Shown: one piece after another, positions 52,037 to 58,798 of the stretch
How the letters are laid out: each line of letters begins with the position of its first letter
Numbering within the stretch: position 1 is the stretch's first letter
Source: Alphaproteobacteria bacterium
GTDB lineage: Bacteria > Pseudomonadota > Alphaproteobacteria > JANQMY01
Direction of reading: 5' to 3'
Assembly (NCBI GenBank): GCA_028289425.1
Contig: JANQPL010000004.1
Location: forward strand, 248,001-312,000
DNA length: 64,000 nucleotides
Program-made: the position numbers and the translations under genes
The notes under the pieces: model-generated
What the model saw: only the letters and a program-made list of their open reading frames with translations
Told to the model about the DNA's origin: nothing
The model's database searches: none

Positions 52037-53908
52037 TCATTCACCCTCCTGTCGCTTCGCGAAGATGTATGGCTCGAGCGAGCCTTGGGCGGCGATGCGG
52101 CGCTTGTGCCACTGGCCGCCGCCGTAATAGGCGAGGCTGCCGGGGGCCGCTTCGCCGTGGCCGTTATAGTAGGTGATGCAGTCGCGTAAGGGACGCGTAA
52201 TGGTGTCGGCCTTTGCGCAGTGGATTGCGTATTCCTCTTCCGGCTCTTCCTTCACATCGACGATGGTGTCGCCGCGTTCGCGCAAGGTCTCGAGCATCCA
52301 CACCGCATAGTCAATATGCTGAACAATGGCATCGGTGAAGTTGAAACTGCCGCCGCCGCCCTGGGGCCCCGTGATCATAAACAGGTTGGGGAAGCCACGG
52401 CTGTGCACGCCGAGGAACGTCTTGGTGCCTTCGGTCTGCCACTTCTCGCTCAAGGTGCGGCCGTTGCGCCCCTTTACCATGTTGAAGGAGGCCGTGGCCA
52501 TCCAATCGAACCCGGTGGCGTAGATTAGAACATCCAGCGGATACTCCGTGCCCTCATGCACCACGCCGCGTTCATTGATCTTTTGAACGCCGCGCGGCGC
52601 CGTGTCCACTAAATGCACATTGGGCTGGTTGAAGGTGGGCAGATATTCGTCGTGGAACGTCGGCCGCTTGCAGCCATAAGGGTAATAGGGTTTCAGCGCC
52701 GCGGCGGTTTTGGGATCTTCCACAATGGCGTCCACCCGCGCGCGGATCTGTTCCATGATGCGGAAATTGGTGTTGAGCTGCTTTTGCACCAGCTCTTCCG
52801 GCGAGAGCTTCCGGTCAAATTGCTTGCGCACTTTATAGTCCGGCACTTTGCCGGCGAGATAATCCTCATTGGCTTTGATGGCCGTGCGCCCTTCGGAAAT
52901 CTTGGCGAAGCGCGCGCGGCGGGCCCGGGCCCAGCCTTCTTCATGTGCCCAGGTCTCGCGCTCCTCTTGCGTGGTTTCGCGCTGGTCGCGCACGTCTACG
53001 GAGGATGGAGTGCGTTGAAAGACATAGAGTTCCTTCACCACCTTGGCGATTTCCGGGATGACCTGCACGGCCGTGGCGCCCGTGCCGATGATGCCCACGG
53101 TCTTACCGGTAAGGTCGATGTCATAGCGCCAGCGGGAGGTATGGAACGTTTCCCCCTCATAGGTTTCCATGCCGTCGATGCGGGCAAGCTTGGGCGTGGT
53201 GAGAATGCCGTTGGCCAGGATCACATAGCGCGCCTTCATGGCGTCACCCCGGTCGGTGCGCACGGTCCAGCGGCCGGTGGCTTCGTCCCATTCGGTTTGT
53301 TCCACCGTGGTGTGGAACAGGCACTTGTCATAGAAGCCGAACTTCTCGGCCATGGTCTGGCAATATTCCATGATCTCGAAGCCGGAGGCGAAACGCATGG
53401 AAGGGATGTAGCCCATCTCTTCCAACAGCGGCAGATAGGAGTAGCTTTCCACATCGCAGGCGATGCCCGGATAGCGGTTCCAATACCAGGTGCCGCCCAC
53501 ATCGCCGCCCTTTTCGCAGAAGCGCACATCGTTAAAGCCCGCTTCCTTGAGCTTGTGGCACAGAAGCAGGCCGGCGAACCCGGCGCCGACGCAGAGAATG
53601 TCGCATTCGTCCGTCAGCGGCTCGCGCGGGATGGGCGGTTCCGAATAGACGTCTTCCAGATACTTGCGGAACCGTCCTTCCATGGGGATGTAATCGGCGG
53701 CGCCCGCGCGCTCCTCTTTGAAGGCGCGGTATTTGGCTTGTTCTTCCGCATTGAAGACAGCGCCCGGCGGCTCCGGCGGTAGGGTTTTCAAGCTCTCGTC
53801 GGTTTGCACCGAATAGCCCTTGCCGCGAATGTTGTCGTTGGCCTTGGCGGCGCGGGTGTTGAACTTCTTCAAGCCTGTACTGGGATCGATTTCAATTGCG
53901 ACGGACAT
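52037..53908 (-). CDS. Flavin-dependent monooxygenase, Baeyer-Villiger type (second)
   Basis: 623 residues from the ATG at 53906-53908; another ATG lies at 53956. An N-terminal extension of about 110 residues precedes ILCVGAGFAGLLLCHKL (FAD), GGTWYWNRYPGIACDVES, the BVMO fingerprint in the form YEGETFHTSRW (Tyr at the first place) and TVGIIGTGATAVQ (NADPH), with YATGFDWMATAS near the end. The long N-terminus is typical of cyclopentadecanone/steroid-monooxygenase-like BVMOs. Converts ketones to esters or lactones; substrate unknown. Confidence 0.88.
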   Translation of the reverse strand: MSVAIEIDPSTGLKKFNTRAAKANDNIRGKGYSVQTDESLKTLPPEPPGAVFNAEEQAKYRAFKEERAGAADYIPMEGRFRKYLEDVYSEPPIPREPLTDECDILCVGAGFAGLLLCHKLKEAGFNDVRFCEKGGDVGGTWYWNRYPGIACDVESYSYLPLLEEMGYIPSMRFASGFEIMEYCQTMAEKFGFYDKCLFHTTVEQTEWDEATGRWTVRTDRGDAMKARYVILANGILTTPKLARIDGMETYEGETFHTSRWRYDIDLTGKTVGIIGTGATAVQVIPEIAKVVKELYVFQRTPSSVDVRDQRETTQEERETWAHEEGWARARRARFAKISEGRTAIKANEDYLAGKVPDYKVRKQFDRKLSPEELVQKQLNTNFRIMEQIRARVDAIVEDPKTAAALKPYYPYGCKRPTFHDEYLPTFNQPNVHLVDTAPRGVQKINERGVVHEGTEYPLDVLIYATGFDWMATASFNMVKGRNGRTLSEKWQTEGTKTFLGVHSRGFPNLFMITGPQGGGGSFNFTDAIVQHIDYAVWMLETLRERGDTIVDVKEEPEEEYAIHCAKADTITRPLRDCITYYNGHGEAAPGSLAYYGGGQWHKRRIAAQGSLEPYIFAKRQEGE

Positions 53909-54071
53909 GCCCACTGACTCTCGTTTCTTTGCTGTCTTGCCAAACTGTATACTCATGGGCTCTTGGGCAGCAAGGAAGCCCCCGCGTCCACACCTCCTCA
54001 ATCGGCGCCCCTCAAGCTCGTGCCATAATTGGTCTGTATAAACGCCGAATCATCACAGAAGGAATTTTTGC

Positions 54072-55265
54072 ATGCGCTTCGCCTCAGTTGCATTTTTGTT
54101 GGCCTTGGCCTGGTCGGCCGCCGCTTCCGCCGAACAGCGCAGCGATGAATTCTTGTCGTGTCTTGCAGGCATCAAACAGGCCGCCCACAGCGCCGGCATC
54201 AGCCCCGCCATCACGGAAGCCGCCCTGAAAGACGTGAAAGAGCCCGCGGAGCGCGTGCTGAAACTGTCCGAGGTTCAGCCCGAAACCAAGTTTCACATTT
54301 GGGACTATTTGGGCTTCCTGGTGGACGATCAGCGGATCGACGACGGCAAGGCCAAAATGGCCGAACACGATGCCCTTCTGCGCGCGGTGGAAGAACGCTA
54401 TGGGGTCAACCGCTATGTGGTGGCCGCCGTCTGGGGTGTGGAAACCGATTACGGCCGCGCGGTTGGGCGCAATTTTCTGCCCCATGCGCTCACCACCATG
54501 GTGTGCAAAAACGATCACCGTACGGAGTTTTGGCAAAAGCAGTTGATCGCCGCCCTGCAATTGGTGGAACGGGGCGATTTGCAGCTTGAAAAACTCTACG
54601 GCTCCTGGGCGGGCGCGTTCGGCCAAACCCAATTCATTCCGACCACGTACGAACATTTCGCGGTGGATTTCGACGGCGACGGCAAGCGCGACCTGGTGGA
54701 CAATGTGGCGGATGCGCTGGGCTCCACCGCCAATTATTTGCGGGGCAATGGCTGGCAGCCGGGGGCAAGCTGGCTCATCGAAGTAAAACTGCCCGCGGGC
54801 TATAACGGCCCCACGGGACGCAAGAACAAAGCCTCACTGTCAACCTGGACACAGCGCGGCATCACCCGCTGGGACGGATCGCCGCTTCGGGGCCAGGGGT
54901 CCGCGGGGTTGCTGCTGCCTGCCGGCAAAGAGGGACCGGCCTTTCTGACATTCAAGAACTTCGATGCCATCTGGACCTACAACCGGGCGGAATCCTACGC
55001 CCTGGCGATCTCCCATCTAGCGGATCGCATGGCGGGCTACCCCGCCTTTCGCACGCCGTGGCCGACGGACGATTTGGGGCTCAGCCGGGCCCAGCGCTAC
55101 CGGCTGCAGGAGCTGCTAATCGCCGAGGGCTACGACATTGGTGAGGCCGACGGCAAGATCGGCTCCCGCTCCCAAGCCGCAATTCGTAAGCACGAGGAAA
55201 AGCTTGGCTGGGAACCCACCGGCCGCGCCGGCACCAAGATCTTCAAAGCCCTTGGGGGTGAGTGA
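54072..55265 (+). CDS. Lytic murein transglycosylase, MltB type
   Basis: 397 residues. Signal peptide (core VAFLLALAWSAAASA) without lipobox, so periplasmic. SLT_2 domain with catalytic Glu in AAVWGVETDYGRAVGRN, then GAFGQTQFIPTTYEHFAVDFDGDGKRD and SYALAISHLADRMAG. A peptidoglycan-binding domain ends the protein (QELLIAEGYDIGEADGKIGS, SQAAIRKHEEKLG). Cleaves glycan strands to anhydro ends. Divergent from the BVMO gene. Confidence 0.93.
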   Translation: MRFASVAFLLALAWSAAASAEQRSDEFLSCLAGIKQAAHSAGISPAITEAALKDVKEPAERVLKLSEVQPETKFHIWDYLGFLVDDQRIDDGKAKMAEHDALLRAVEERYGVNRYVVAAVWGVETDYGRAVGRNFLPHALTTMVCKNDHRTEFWQKQLIAALQLVERGDLQLEKLYGSWAGAFGQTQFIPTTYEHFAVDFDGDGKRDLVDNVADALGSTANYLRGNGWQPGASWLIEVKLPAGYNGPTGRKNKASLSTWTQRGITRWDGSPLRGQGSAGLLLPAGKEGPAFLTFKNFDAIWTYNRAESYALAISHLADRMAGYPAFRTPWPTDDLGLSRAQRYRLQELLIAEGYDIGEADGKIGSRSQAAIRKHEEKLGWEPTGRAGTKIFKALGGE

Positions 55266-55276
55266 GTCTTTGTTGA

Positions 55277-55366
55277 TTAGCCTGGCCGGCCCACTCCCCC
55301 GTCCCAACCACCCCAAGGGTACCCTGGTTCGGGTGGTTGGGACGGGGGAGCGGGCTGGCTAGGCCA
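55277..55366. repeat. GGTACC-type palindromic repeat, copy F
   Basis: About 90 bp, the best-preserved copy. Arm pair GT/AC (CCCCCGTCCCAACC vs GGTTGGGACGGGGG), core AAGGGTACCCT with GGTACC at 55318-55323. Lies between convergent genes and could terminate both. Confidence 0.88.
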
Positions 55367-55370
55367 ACAA

Positions 55371-56651
55371 TCAAGCCGATGCTTCGAACACGGGCCAGCG
55401 GTCGACGATGGCACCGTCGTCATAAACGGCAATGTCACCGAACTGCAGGAACACCGCCTCGCTTTGTTGGGGGCGGAAGAAGACAAACTCATCGGGCGAA
55501 ATGTCCAGCTCATGCCCGCCATTGAGCATCTCCTGATTTGACGACCGCCCAAAGGTGGCGTTGAAGGCAAGACCCGGCGGGTCCACCGGGTCCGCCAGCC
55601 AATGGCCGCCGTAAATGAACACTGTGCGCGCGGTGTTGGGATTCCAAAGCCGCTGGAGGCCGGTTGTGAATTCAAGCCCCGGGATGCGCGTTTGATCGAA
55701 CGATTTAATCACCGGGGTTGCGATAAAGCTTGCCGGCAGATGCGGTTCCAGCAAGTCGGTATCGAAATGAGTGGGTTTCACCAGGCATGAGCCTGCGGAG
55801 ATTTCATTGGCAATCTCCGTATCCTGATAATAGCGATAGGTGGGGCTGCCGGCGGCGTTGCGGGTGAGGCCGCCCATTTTATCGGCGCCGAACACAGTTG
55901 CTGCACTGCTGAGGCATTCGCGGTAGAGCGACCAGGCAGCGTTCTTCGCCCGCTCCCGCCAGCCAAAAGCTGTGGGAAGTCCAGGAAGATGCGGCTCGTA
56001 CCCCATAAATCCGGTAAAGGTTAAAACCTTGCTTTCTTTGATGAATTCGAGCGTGCTTTGCAAGTCCGGGCCGGGCGCGAACCCGCCCCGATGCAACCCC
56101 ACATCGATCTCCACATTGACTCGGAAGGTTCGCCCCACGGCGCCTGCGAGCTCCGCATATTGACGGGCACGCGCGGGGGTGTCGATCAGCCATTGGACAT
56201 TGTCGGCAGCCTGTGCCTGCGCCGGCGCAAGTTCTTGAAAATACCGTTTTGCCGCCGCCACCGGCAGGGGCTTCCCCATCAGCTGATCCGCCGCCGGCAT
56301 CATGGCGCTCAGCGTATTGAGCATGGGCTGATTGAACGTCATCAGCCTGTCGGTTCCTGACCGCGCACCGATATGCGCGATCAGGTCGAGGCTAGGCAGC
56401 GACTTCGCCACAATGCGATAGCCCATACCGTCCGGCAAATGACTCATCAGCGTGTCGATATTGGCGTTGAGGCGTGCGCGGTCGATCACCAGCGTTGGCG
56501 TGGCGATGCCCGCCGCCGTCAAAGCATTCTGTAGGCTGAGGAAATAGGGATCCCGCGCACCGCTCCGGTCGCTTGGCCGGCTTGCGACCACCCCAAGCCC
56601 GACGAGGCCCGCCGCCCCCAGCACCATATGTCGCCGCGACAGCTCAGGCAT
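55371..56651 (-). CDS. Tat-exported alanine racemase/D-threonine aldolase-fold PLP enzyme
   Basis: 426 residues from the ATG at 56649-56651. Twin-arginine signal (LSRRHMVLGAAGLVGLG) at the N-terminus. Then a PLP type III barrel: ATPTLVIDRARLNANID, YRIVAKSLPSLDLI (PLP-lysine in the AKS position) and VEIDVGLHRGGF, GGLTRNAAGSPTYRYY, ending with LQFGDIAVYDDGAIVDRWPV. Resembles the D-threonine aldolase/DSD1 group. Its ATG overlaps the lactone oxidase stop by 8 nt, so the two form an operon under the TetR site upstream. Confidence 0.82.
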   Translation of the reverse strand: MPELSRRHMVLGAAGLVGLGVVASRPSDRSGARDPYFLSLQNALTAAGIATPTLVIDRARLNANIDTLMSHLPDGMGYRIVAKSLPSLDLIAHIGARSGTDRLMTFNQPMLNTLSAMMPAADQLMGKPLPVAAAKRYFQELAPAQAQAADNVQWLIDTPARARQYAELAGAVGRTFRVNVEIDVGLHRGGFAPGPDLQSTLEFIKESKVLTFTGFMGYEPHLPGLPTAFGWRERAKNAAWSLYRECLSSAATVFGADKMGGLTRNAAGSPTYRYYQDTEIANEISAGSCLVKPTHFDTDLLEPHLPASFIATPVIKSFDQTRIPGLEFTTGLQRLWNPNTARTVFIYGGHWLADPVDPPGLAFNATFGRSSNQEMLNGGHELDISPDEFVFFRPQQSEAVFLQFGDIAVYDDGAIVDRWPVFEASA

Positions 56652-58071
56652 TGGCTGCCTCGCCAAACACTTGGGCGAGATGCGGATTAAGGAACTTGCC
56701 CTCCGGATCCATGTCCCGGCGCAGTTCAACGAAGCGCTCAAAATCCGGATACAGAGCTTTTAGCCGATCCGCGCCGAGCCCGTGCAGCTTGCCCCAATGG
56801 GGCCGGCCGCCTTTTTCCAAGTACATGGGCTCGAACTCTGTAAAGAAAAAGTCATACCGCTCTTCGGGAGACGAATGAATGGCGATCGACGCCCGCGGCC
56901 CGCCGTTAAACGGGCTGAGCCAGGCGTCATCGGCGGCCACATGGCGGTATTCCATGGGAAAGTAAACTTCCTTGCGCCGATCGAGCATATCGATCACCCG
57001 GGCCACCATGGCCGGTCCTTCTTCCAAGGGCAGGTGGTATTCCATCTCGACGAATTGGGTGGGCCGGGCGGTCGCCAACAAGGCATGGGAGCTATCCACC
57101 CGATCCTCGATGACACCTTGAGGAAATTCGGACTGGGCCATCCAGCGGCGCAAGAACGGCGCCCAGCCCAATGCGTCGCGCAATTGTCTGAGCCCTTGCA
57201 GCACTTCGTCATCGTCTGCCTCGCCGGCGTCCGATATGGGGGCGTCGGTCACGTCATGCACCAGGCTCGCCACAAGCTCCGTACCCGGAAAATAGAAGAA
57301 CTCGAAATGGCGATGGGTGGCGCCAAGCTCGCCGATCCTTCCAAGGAAGTCGCGCACGGGTTCCACCGTGACCGTTCGCTTCAGGTTGAACGCCGGCACC
57401 GTGCGCAATCTGTATTCCGTGATGACCCCCAGCGCCCCCAGCGACACCTTGCCGGCGGCGAATAGGTCGGGATTTGAGTCCGCCGACACATCGAGCGTTT
57501 CGCCGGAAGGCGTCATAATGCGGAACCCCGTAATGTAATCATGAAGCGCGGTAAGTTTCTCACCCGTGCCGTGGGTTGCGGTGGAAAACGCCCCGGCCAG
57601 CGTCTGCACGTCAATGTCCGACAAGTTTTCGAACGCGCGGCCCTTCGCATCCAATTCCTGCGCCGCGTTGAACAACATGGTGCCCGCGCCGAAGCTTGCC
57701 TCGCCCGTGGCGGGGTCGATCCCACGCAAGCCCTCAATACCGCCCAGATGGATCATGGTGCCGTCTGAAGGCGCCACGCCGGAGAATGAATGGCCGCTGC
57801 CCACAGGACGGATAGGTCCGGCGGCGCTGCGCACAATCTCTGCAAGCTCGGCTTCGTTCTCGGGCCACAGCACACCGTGAGGCGTCGCGCGCTGATTGCC
57901 CGCCCAATTCATCCAGGCTTCTTTGCCCTCCGGCGCCGCGTGGAGGTTCGGATCATAGCCCTCGCGCACAAAGTCGCGCCCGTCCCAGCGCAGCTTTTGA
58001 ACCACCGGGACAGTTGCCAAAGCACCCGCACCGCCGGCGCCGATCAACATGGTCCGCCTAGAGATTTGCAT
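56644..58071 (-). CDS. Tat-exported FAD-linked lactone oxidase (ALO/GULO type)
   Basis: 475 residues from the ATG at 58069-58071 (GGAGGG upstream). Tat signal ISRRTMLIGAGGAGAL. FAD domain with PVGSGHSFSGVA, the segment used for covalent FAD attachment in aldonolactone oxidases, ATHGTGEKL, and a C-terminal ALO domain with GGRPHWGKLHGL, MDPEGKFLNPHLAQVFG. Oxidises a sugar lactone or related alcohol in the periplasm with O2 or another acceptor. First gene of the pair with the PLP enzyme. Confidence 0.87.
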   Translation of the reverse strand: MQISRRTMLIGAGGAGALATVPVVQKLRWDGRDFVREGYDPNLHAAPEGKEAWMNWAGNQRATPHGVLWPENEAELAEIVRSAAGPIRPVGSGHSFSGVAPSDGTMIHLGGIEGLRGIDPATGEASFGAGTMLFNAAQELDAKGRAFENLSDIDVQTLAGAFSTATHGTGEKLTALHDYITGFRIMTPSGETLDVSADSNPDLFAAGKVSLGALGVITEYRLRTVPAFNLKRTVTVEPVRDFLGRIGELGATHRHFEFFYFPGTELVASLVHDVTDAPISDAGEADDDEVLQGLRQLRDALGWAPFLRRWMAQSEFPQGVIEDRVDSSHALLATARPTQFVEMEYHLPLEEGPAMVARVIDMLDRRKEVYFPMEYRHVAADDAWLSPFNGGPRASIAIHSSPEERYDFFFTEFEPMYLEKGGRPHWGKLHGLGADRLKALYPDFERFVELRRDMDPEGKFLNPHLAQVFGEAANA

Positions 58072-58086
58072 GCCGCCCTCCAAAAA

Positions 58087-58116
58087 ATAGTAGTTTTTAC
58101 TATCTTATTTGATAGT
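58087..58116. promoter_or_regulatory. Twin palindromes between the lactone-oxidase operon and tetR
   Basis: ATAGTA-N5-TACTAT (58087-58103) overlaps ACTATC-TTATTT-GATAGT (58099-58116). This AT-rich block lies between two divergent genes, one a TetR regulator, and is the natural operator for both. Confidence 0.65.
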
Positions 58117-58192
58117 ATTTGCTATATTTCGGAGAACGAGTCAACCGCATTCTTCGGAAAGCCCCCCTCCGGGCCTTTGGAGCAAATCAACC

Positions 58193-58798
58193 GTGACCAC
58201 ACCTAAGCAAAGGCCTCGCCAGGCCCGCTCTCAAGCGACATTCGAAAGGCTGCTGGAAACGGCCCAAGCCCTCTTGGAGGCCTCCGGCATCGAAGGGTTT
58301 AATTCGAACGCGGTGGTCGAGCGAGCGGGCATGACGCCCCCGGCCTTTTACCGCTACTTCCCCAACAAGCACGCTTTGCTTCAGGAACTGGGCCAGCGGT
58401 TCATGACCATCCAAAACCAGATCATTCTGGACACCCCGATTGACCGGCGCCTTGCAAAGAATGAGTTCATCGCGGTCTCCAAAAAGATGCTCGAACGCAC
58501 CGTCCAGGTGACGAAAGACTTCCGGGGCGGATACGCCCTGCTGGTTTCTCTTCGCGCCATTCCCGAATTGCGGCCCGTGCGTCTGCAGTCCCATGAGCAG
58601 ATGGCGGCGGTTCTAACGGAGCGCGCGCCGGTCATGGGGATCGAAGGCGTTGGGGATCACCTTATGGCAAAAAGCCGGCTTGTGATCGAGACGGGATATG
58701 CGGCGGTCGAAATGCTGTTCGAGACGGGCTTCCGCAATCAGGGTGTCATTCTCGATGCCACCGCCCGCGCCAATGCGGCAATCTTTGAGATTGAGTGA
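58193..58798 (+). CDS. TetR/AcrR-family transcriptional regulator
   Basis: 201 residues from the GTG at 58193 (TTTGGAG ten bases upstream); earlier in-frame codons lack support. Helix-turn-helix at residues about 15-60: RQARSQATFERLLETAQALL, SNAVVERAGMTPPAFYRYFP, NKHALLQELGQRF. The ligand domain is ordinary in length. It most likely represses the divergent lactone-oxidase/PLP operon and itself through the twin palindromes. The operators of the 1-11 kb locus differ in sequence, so another regulator must serve them. Confidence 0.9.
   Translation: MTTPKQRPRQARSQATFERLLETAQALLEASGIEGFNSNAVVERAGMTPPAFYRYFPNKHALLQELGQRFMTIQNQIILDTPIDRRLAKNEFIAVSKKMLERTVQVTKDFRGGYALLVSLRAIPELRPVRLQSHEQMAAVLTERAPVMGIEGVGDHLMAKSRLVIETGYAAVEMLFETGFRNQGVILDATARANAAIFEIE

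Follow-up and report, generated by a model that had tools for sequence, protein, structure and literature searches.

A conserved SphC–SphD enzyme pair with twin-arginine signals in an alphaproteobacterium and its possible role in sphingoid base breakdown

Introduction

What do a flavin enzyme and a pyridoxal phosphate (PLP) enzyme act on when they are encoded side by side and both start with a twin-arginine signal? The question was raised by a gene pair in a 64,000-nucleotide stretch of an alphaproteobacterial genome (assembly GCA_028289425.1, contig JANQPL010000004.1, positions 248,001 to 312,000), here called the window. The pair encodes an SphC-like oxidoreductase that binds flavin adenine dinucleotide (FAD) and an SphD-like PLP enzyme, and is preceded by a divergent TetR-family gene. 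The original prediction placed the pair in a pathway that was not known. This had to be given up: homologous sphCD genes form, together with sphB, a sphingosine-responsive operon of Pseudomonas aeruginosa (PMC3900636, PMC5150637, PMC11893366). We propose, with about even confidence, that the window pair is a relative of sphBCD that breaks down sphingoid bases, lipids with a 2-amino-1,3-diol group, on the periplasmic side of the inner membrane.

In P. aeruginosa the trio PA5328-PA5326 is described with the same order as the cytochrome-FAD-PLP gene sets reported here (PMC5150637) and was named sphBCD in PMC3900636. Normal growth with sphingosine and the removal of sphingosine are described to require sphB and sphC, and SphC is stated to be TAT-secreted (PMC11893366). 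An oxidation followed by an aldolase cleavage is the published proposal. In the literature searched, no report was found of a demonstrated substrate or product of SphC or of a demonstrated activity of SphD.

Conservation of the gene pair and of its signals

The pair was followed in two sets of loci. The first was drawn from genome contigs, in which 125 relatives of the PLP protein were detected and the best 80 retained. For the second, 397 genomes spread evenly over the phylum were searched, in which the PLP protein was called at E 1e-60; 26 of them had it, including the window's genome with its single copy, and regions were fetched for 17 of the 26. SphB, SphC and SphD were counted by tblastn; a simple gene caller misread the high-GC loci.

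In 74 of the 80 loci of the first set and 14 of the 17 loci of the second, sphC was the direct upstream neighbour of sphD in the same orientation. The pair is therefore real and spread far beyond one genus, and the pairing on which the original prediction had built holds. Exceptions were L055 (truncated at the contig end), L058, L059, L060 (SphC farther upstream), L069 and L081 in the first set and L127, L131 and L132 in the second; a same-strand SphC was absent in seven of the 97 loci (L055, L058, L059, L069, L081, L131 and L132). The overlap of the two reading frames by 8 nt was shared by 39/80 and 1/17 loci, respectively. With L017, L051 and L082 left out, as well as the seven loci that lack a same-strand SphC, the distance matrices of SphC and SphD were correlated with r = 0.887 (maximum among 999 permutations 0.161), a value to which the common species history adds.

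Twin-arginine starts were called by a script in the 90 of 97 loci that contain both genes. Both proteins had such a start in 72 loci and neither had it in 13, and the calls were discordant in 5. One of the discordant loci is genuine (L060); the others were explained by a contig end (L017), by broken frames (L051, L082) and by a score below the threshold with the motif visible by eye (L125). Further exceptions were L063 and L067, which were scored as having neither signal, yet by eye SphC has a twin-arginine start there and SphD does not. The loci without signals were found on several branches of the midpoint-rooted SphD tree (L133/L134/L138/L139; L056/L057/L137; L050/L052; L048; L127). Hence, the two signals are mostly retained or lost together, which argues that both enzymes pass a substrate within one compartment.

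In the window both enzymes open, by sight, with a motif of the SRRxML/SRRxMV type followed by a hydrophobic stretch. The conservation of the motif supports the signals that had been noticed on both proteins. Both enzymes are probably exported by the twin-arginine translocation (Tat) pathway. The leader of the window SphC has no evident AxA site and may remain as a membrane anchor. The export of a fold-type-III PLP enzyme has a precedent in BsrV, which is periplasmic.

Three side observations were made on the relatives. In L133 (7042-11425) and L138 (7390-11781) the signal-less pair has an alternative layout, with an MFS transporter gene on one side and a divergent TetR gene on the other. An SphD that is 70-71% identical to that of the window is encoded on contigs assigned to Acidobacteria or Sulfopaludibacter (L022, L027, L037, L046); in the SphD tree these cluster with loci of the Hyphomonas type, and they are probably mis-binned metagenome contigs. 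In a Ruegeria sp. (L051, 4531-6005) the SphC gene is split over two frames and the SphD frame is open, which points to a pseudogene or a sequencing error.

The FAD enzyme SphC

The window FAD protein reached 451.7 bits with TIGR01679, the model for a bacterial FAD-linked oxidoreductase (cut-off 292.25 bits), and 189.1 bits with the sugar 1,4-lactone oxidase model TIGR01678, which has a cut-off of 396.8 bits. In Pfam it matched ALO with 162.3 bits and FAD_binding_4 with 87.3 bits. Conserved residues of SphC and SphD were read from alignment A1, which contains the window and 50 of the 80 loci of the first set, and alignment A2 with the window, 43 of these 80 loci and 7 of the 17 loci of the second set. 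In SphC, H94 in the column of the covalent FAD and the residues E374, R376, H399 and K428 were invariant in 51/51 sequences. The last four stand in columns of our alignment that we take to be those of E320, R322, H343 and K375 of AldO, and the column that presumably holds AldO Thr345 was variable.

The electron acceptor was approached with the gatekeeper column. The window SphC has Ala165, and the 87 readable SphC sequences had Ala in 64, Ser in 13 and Gly in 10 cases. Ala is described for the cytochrome-c-using GalDH and Gly for the oxygen-using GULO and ALO (PMC11099136). The Ala or Ser in 77 of the 87 sequences therefore predicts that SphC is a dehydrogenase rather than an oxidase. A small CxxCH cytochrome that resembles SphB was found directly upstream of the FAD gene in 33/80 loci of the first and 8/17 loci of the second set (41/97). 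Most of 18 aligned copies had a cysteine at a lipobox-like position, and the copy of L047 matched Pfam Cytochrome_CBB3. The gatekeeper was also tried as a marker for SphB and was rejected: Gly occurred with SphB in 4 and without it in 6 loci, though 12 of the 13 Ser sequences were from loci with SphB.

At another place, the window's genome encodes a second TIGR01679 protein (L087, 2400-6494). It scored 465.7 bits, has no signal and has a PhyH dioxygenase gene nearby.

The PLP enzyme SphD

The AlphaFold model of SphD had a mean pLDDT of 91.8. Its nearest structures, with VIA Z from 31.2 to 33.7, were D-threonine aldolases, BhcC, the uncharacterised 3llx and the D-serine and D-hydroxyaspartate dehydratases, whereas alanine racemases and a putative D-serine deaminase reached at most 26.6. 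The best values of 33.7 were obtained with 7dib and 4v15, which superimposed with root-mean-square deviations of 2.5 and 2.8 over 345 and 348 residues, comprising the fold-type-III PLP barrel and the beta domain. Among the family models, Ala_racemase_N of Pfam was matched with 51.2 bits and the BhcC model NF045642 with 26.1 bits, far from its cut-off of 690.

K83, R188 and Y218 of SphD correspond to Lys59, Arg157 and Tyr187 of the D-threonine aldolase AxDTA and were invariant in 51/51 sequences. Arg157 of AxDTA was modelled as the binder of the substrate carboxylate, and its retention suggests that the substrate of SphD is an amino acid, i.e. the fully oxidised C1 product. His221 was found in 50/51 sequences and is a Phe in the Pseudomonas-type locus L124.

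In a D-erythro sphingoid base C2 has the arrangement of L-serine, with CH2OH as C1. When this CH2OH becomes a carboxyl group and C2 keeps its arrangement, a D-amino acid results, and D-amino acids are the class handled by the fold group of SphD. We predict that SphD acts on D-beta-hydroxy-alpha-amino acids. Of the two kinds of pathway offered by the original prediction, hydroxy-amino acid or sugar acid, the first fits this aldolase-dehydratase fold group for D-threonine and D-hydroxyaspartate, whereas the second is not supported, as the TIGR01678 cut-off was missed.

The window's genome also encodes a D-threonine-aldolase-like protein (L002, 1171-2331) that is distant from SphD, has its best match in 4v15 and keeps the His and Asp at the metal position. 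Since a profile-profile alignment of SphD with this protein ended before the metal site, the tail of SphD was placed on the D-threonine aldolase by an ungapped scan, which gave a score of 28.4 with the next best at -1.6.

The TetR regulator and its palindrome

The adjacent regulator of the window matched TetR_N (48.8 bits), and AraC genes adjoin the Pseudomonas-type copies. Between the regulator and the operon two inverted repeats, 58084-58092/58098-58106 and 58098-58104/58111-58117, overlap so that the middle half-site is used by both. The core TAGTN4ACTA occurs as a single copy in the 64 kb, TAGTTTTTACTA, and none of 100 shuffles contained one. A homologous TetR gene was present in the fetched flanks of 20/80 relatives of the first set, in divergent orientation in 17, a count that rests on the simple gene caller with its misreading of high-GC loci. 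TAGTN4ACTA was found in the intergenic stretch between TetR and the operon in 10 of these 17; 500 mononucleotide shuffles of 18 regions, including the window, gave a mean of 0.49 and at most 3. It was not found in the other seven (L003, which is the nearest relative, L009, L010, L012, L013, L039 and L040). The conservation of the core supports the TetR operator that had been proposed. A scan of 58060-58210 for promoters and terminators found none.

Features of the window and of its genome

Both reading frames were confirmed at the positions claimed for them, and so were their overlap of 8 nt, the overlapping palindromes and the divergent TetR gene. The features are collected in Table 1.

Table 1. 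Coordinates of the gene pair and neighbouring features, numbered from the first nucleotide of the window.
Feature	Position	Strand	Remarks
SphD-like fold-type-III PLP enzyme (P0001)	55371..56651	-	426 aa, N-terminus MPELSRRHMVLG; twin-arginine; Ala_racemase_N
SphC-like FAD oxidoreductase (P0002)	56644..58071	-	475 aa, N-terminus MQISRRTMLIG; twin-arginine; TIGR01679
Overlap of the sphC-like and sphD-like reading frames	56644..56651	-	8 nt
Divergent TetR-family regulator (P0003)	58193..58798	+	GTG start at 58193; starts further upstream possible
Core operator palindrome TAGTTTTTACTA	58091..58102		19 nt from the sphC-like start codon
Two overlapping palindromes with one common half-site (58084-58106, 58098-58117)	58084..58117		Presumed TetR operator
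47-nt inverted repeat	55270..55374		83% complementary; arms 11 nt apart
Lytic transglycosylase gene	54072..55265	+	Converges with the PLP gene

The overlap of the frames would couple the translation of the sphC-like and sphD-like genes. The inverted repeat between the convergent PLP and lytic transglycosylase genes is a presumed bidirectional terminator, though it could also be a mobile hairpin. Past the transglycosylase gene a gene for an FMO-like flavin-binding monooxygenase (Pfam) is found on the minus strand at 52037-54001.

Elsewhere in the genome a serine palmitoyltransferase is encoded (L089, 102-2598, contig G000:C19, also L096). It scored 610.4 bits with NF047599, and its gene is preceded by a gene of the NAD-dependent epimerase family. 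The score exceeds the NCBIfam cut-off of 500 bits. With this enzyme, the bacterium may be able to synthesise sphingolipids itself.

Discussion

In the route that we propose, a sphingoid base or a near analogue would relieve the repression by the divergent TetR. The FAD and PLP enzymes would be exported in the folded state by Tat, as their conserved motifs suggest. SphC would oxidise the hydroxyl group at C1 to an aldehyde and probably further to the acid, and its electrons would be passed to a c-type cytochrome, for which SphB is a candidate in many relatives. The acid derived from a D-erythro sphingoid base would be a D-configured beta-hydroxy-alpha-amino acid and would be offered to SphD. 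A bolder version, which we put forward tentatively and think possible rather than probable, is a widespread two-enzyme route for sphingoid bases outside Pseudomonas. Here, a flavin dehydrogenase would make the D-beta-hydroxy amino acid, a new subclass of D-aldolases with Gln/Glu for the His/Asp metal site would yield glycine and a fatty aldehyde, and the route as a whole would have switched between periplasm and cytoplasm more than once.

Several points weigh against this breakdown of sphingoid bases. For P. aeruginosa, PMC11893366 describes that growth with sphingosine does not need sphD and that a search for the product failed, and presents a direct action of SphBC on sphingosine as unproven. 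In the window's genome (G000) no SphB match was found with profile A3 at E 0.1; in the control, the profile matched 4/4 other genomes, two of which had supplied profile rows. No ceramidase match was found in this genome either. The share of species history in the correlation of SphC with SphD has been mentioned. The signal-less pairs of L133 and L138 adjoin an upstream MFS transporter gene, and a smaller substrate would also fit these loci. The remaining points concern the chemistry of SphD. The dehydratases of the fold group nearly tie with the aldolases in VIA Z, so the fold alone cannot decide between both. The metal ligands His347 and Asp349 of AxDTA are replaced by Gln396 and Glu398, which were invariant in 51/51 sequences, and the catalytic base His193 aligns to the variable column 224. 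Even if its mechanism is alike, SphD thus falls outside the classical metal-dependent D-threonine aldolases. AxDTA is also described to prefer the (2R,3S), syn configuration, whereas the predicted acid is (2R,3R), anti.

The transporter genes next to L133 and L138, together with their divergent TetR genes, also suggest that the pair might apply the same oxidise-then-cleave chemistry to an amino alcohol or 2-amino-1,3-diol other than a sphingoid base, with the sphingosine use of Pseudomonas as one case of a wider range. This is consistent with the distant groups being only about 35-40% identical to the window proteins and with the second TIGR01679 protein over the cut-off in the window's genome. 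We regard it as rather unlikely, since the active-site columns are invariant over the sampled groups and the Pseudomonas-type operon, with the same gene order, is described as sphingosine-regulated (PMC3900636, PMC5150637).

Doubtful, and slightly more so, is a SphD that works on the SphC product as a dehydratase, deaminase or racemase instead of an aldolase. The loss of the aldolase metal pair and of His193 points in this direction, as do the D-serine and D-threo-3-hydroxyaspartate dehydratases of the fold group, with Z of 31.2-32.8 only about 1-2 from the aldolases, and the fold-type-III enzyme OngC, which is described to deaminate its substrate (PMC9537276). However, the serine dehydratase of this group is described to need a His/Cys metal pair (PMC4401734) that is likewise absent from SphD, and the alanine racemases were clearly lower in Z.

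That the pair recycles the sphingolipids of the organism itself was suggested by its serine palmitoyltransferase and seems very improbable. Among the 397 genomes 26 had SphD and 40 had a serine palmitoyltransferase, and both occurred together in the window's genome only, where 2.6 genomes would be expected if they were independent; this lack of co-occurrence also counts against the proposed breakdown of sphingoid bases and is the reason why we set aside the turnover of own sphingolipids as the general purpose of the pair. A periplasmic location and control by a TetR operator would also fit an external compound better. A link to ceramidase was examined as well, and the 2 of 4 ceramidase genomes with SphD (26/397 overall) are too few to rely on. 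Just as improbable is a periplasmic sugar-acid or lactone pathway, which is suggested by the Pfam name ALO and the kinship to alditol oxidase and galactonolactone dehydrogenase, as the FAD protein stays under the lactone oxidase cut-off and its partner belongs to a D-amino-acid fold group.

The breakdown of sphingoid bases remains the reading we prefer, and owing to its stereochemical prediction the route can be tested with two purified enzymes. Should SphD turn out to be an aldolase that lacks the usual metal site, it would also be of use as a C-C lyase. Sphingoid bases are common in marine algae. They are also described as antimicrobial lipids of mammalian epithelia (PMC11893366). The locus and its relatives provide natural variants with or without SphB, with or without signals and with TetR or AraC neighbours.

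Comparison with known systems

The SphC of the window resembles AldO (2vfr) and the L-galactono-1,4-lactone dehydrogenase GalDH (8qmy) in the homology of the FAD and catalytic domains, in the His of the covalent-FAD column and in the Arg/Lys pair, whose role in GalDH is given in PMC11099136. It differs from AldO, which has a Gly gatekeeper, by Ala165 as in GalDH, and from both by the Tat-type signal. SphD shares with AxDTA (4v15) and BhcC (6qkb) the fold, the PLP lysine, the PLP-stacking Tyr and the carboxylate-binding Arg. It differs from them by a Tat-type signal, by the invariant Gln/Glu in place of the His/Asp ligands and by the unconserved His193.

The comparison with P. aeruginosa was made with the Pseudomonas-type copy L124 (genome G065), not with PAO1, and is linked to it by the layout, the family names and the published descriptions. 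In L124, sphB-sphC-sphD converge on an outer-membrane barrel gene (PF13557), and an AraC-type gene (PF12625 and HTH_18) is divergent, which is the arrangement described for sphBCD, sphA and sphR (PMC3900636, PMC5150637). The SphD proteins of the window and L124 are 44% identical and the SphC proteins 37%. As in sphBCD, a gene for a homologous FAD enzyme with a Tat-type signal is followed by the PLP enzyme gene. Unlike in P. aeruginosa, the window regulator is a divergent TetR with its own palindrome and not the AraC-type SphR, a lytic transglycosylase gene and not a porin gene faces the end of the operon, and the sphC and sphD genes overlap by 8 nt. In conclusion, the locus is best described as a variant of the sphBCD system of the SphCD type, with TetR instead of AraC control and no detectable SphB.

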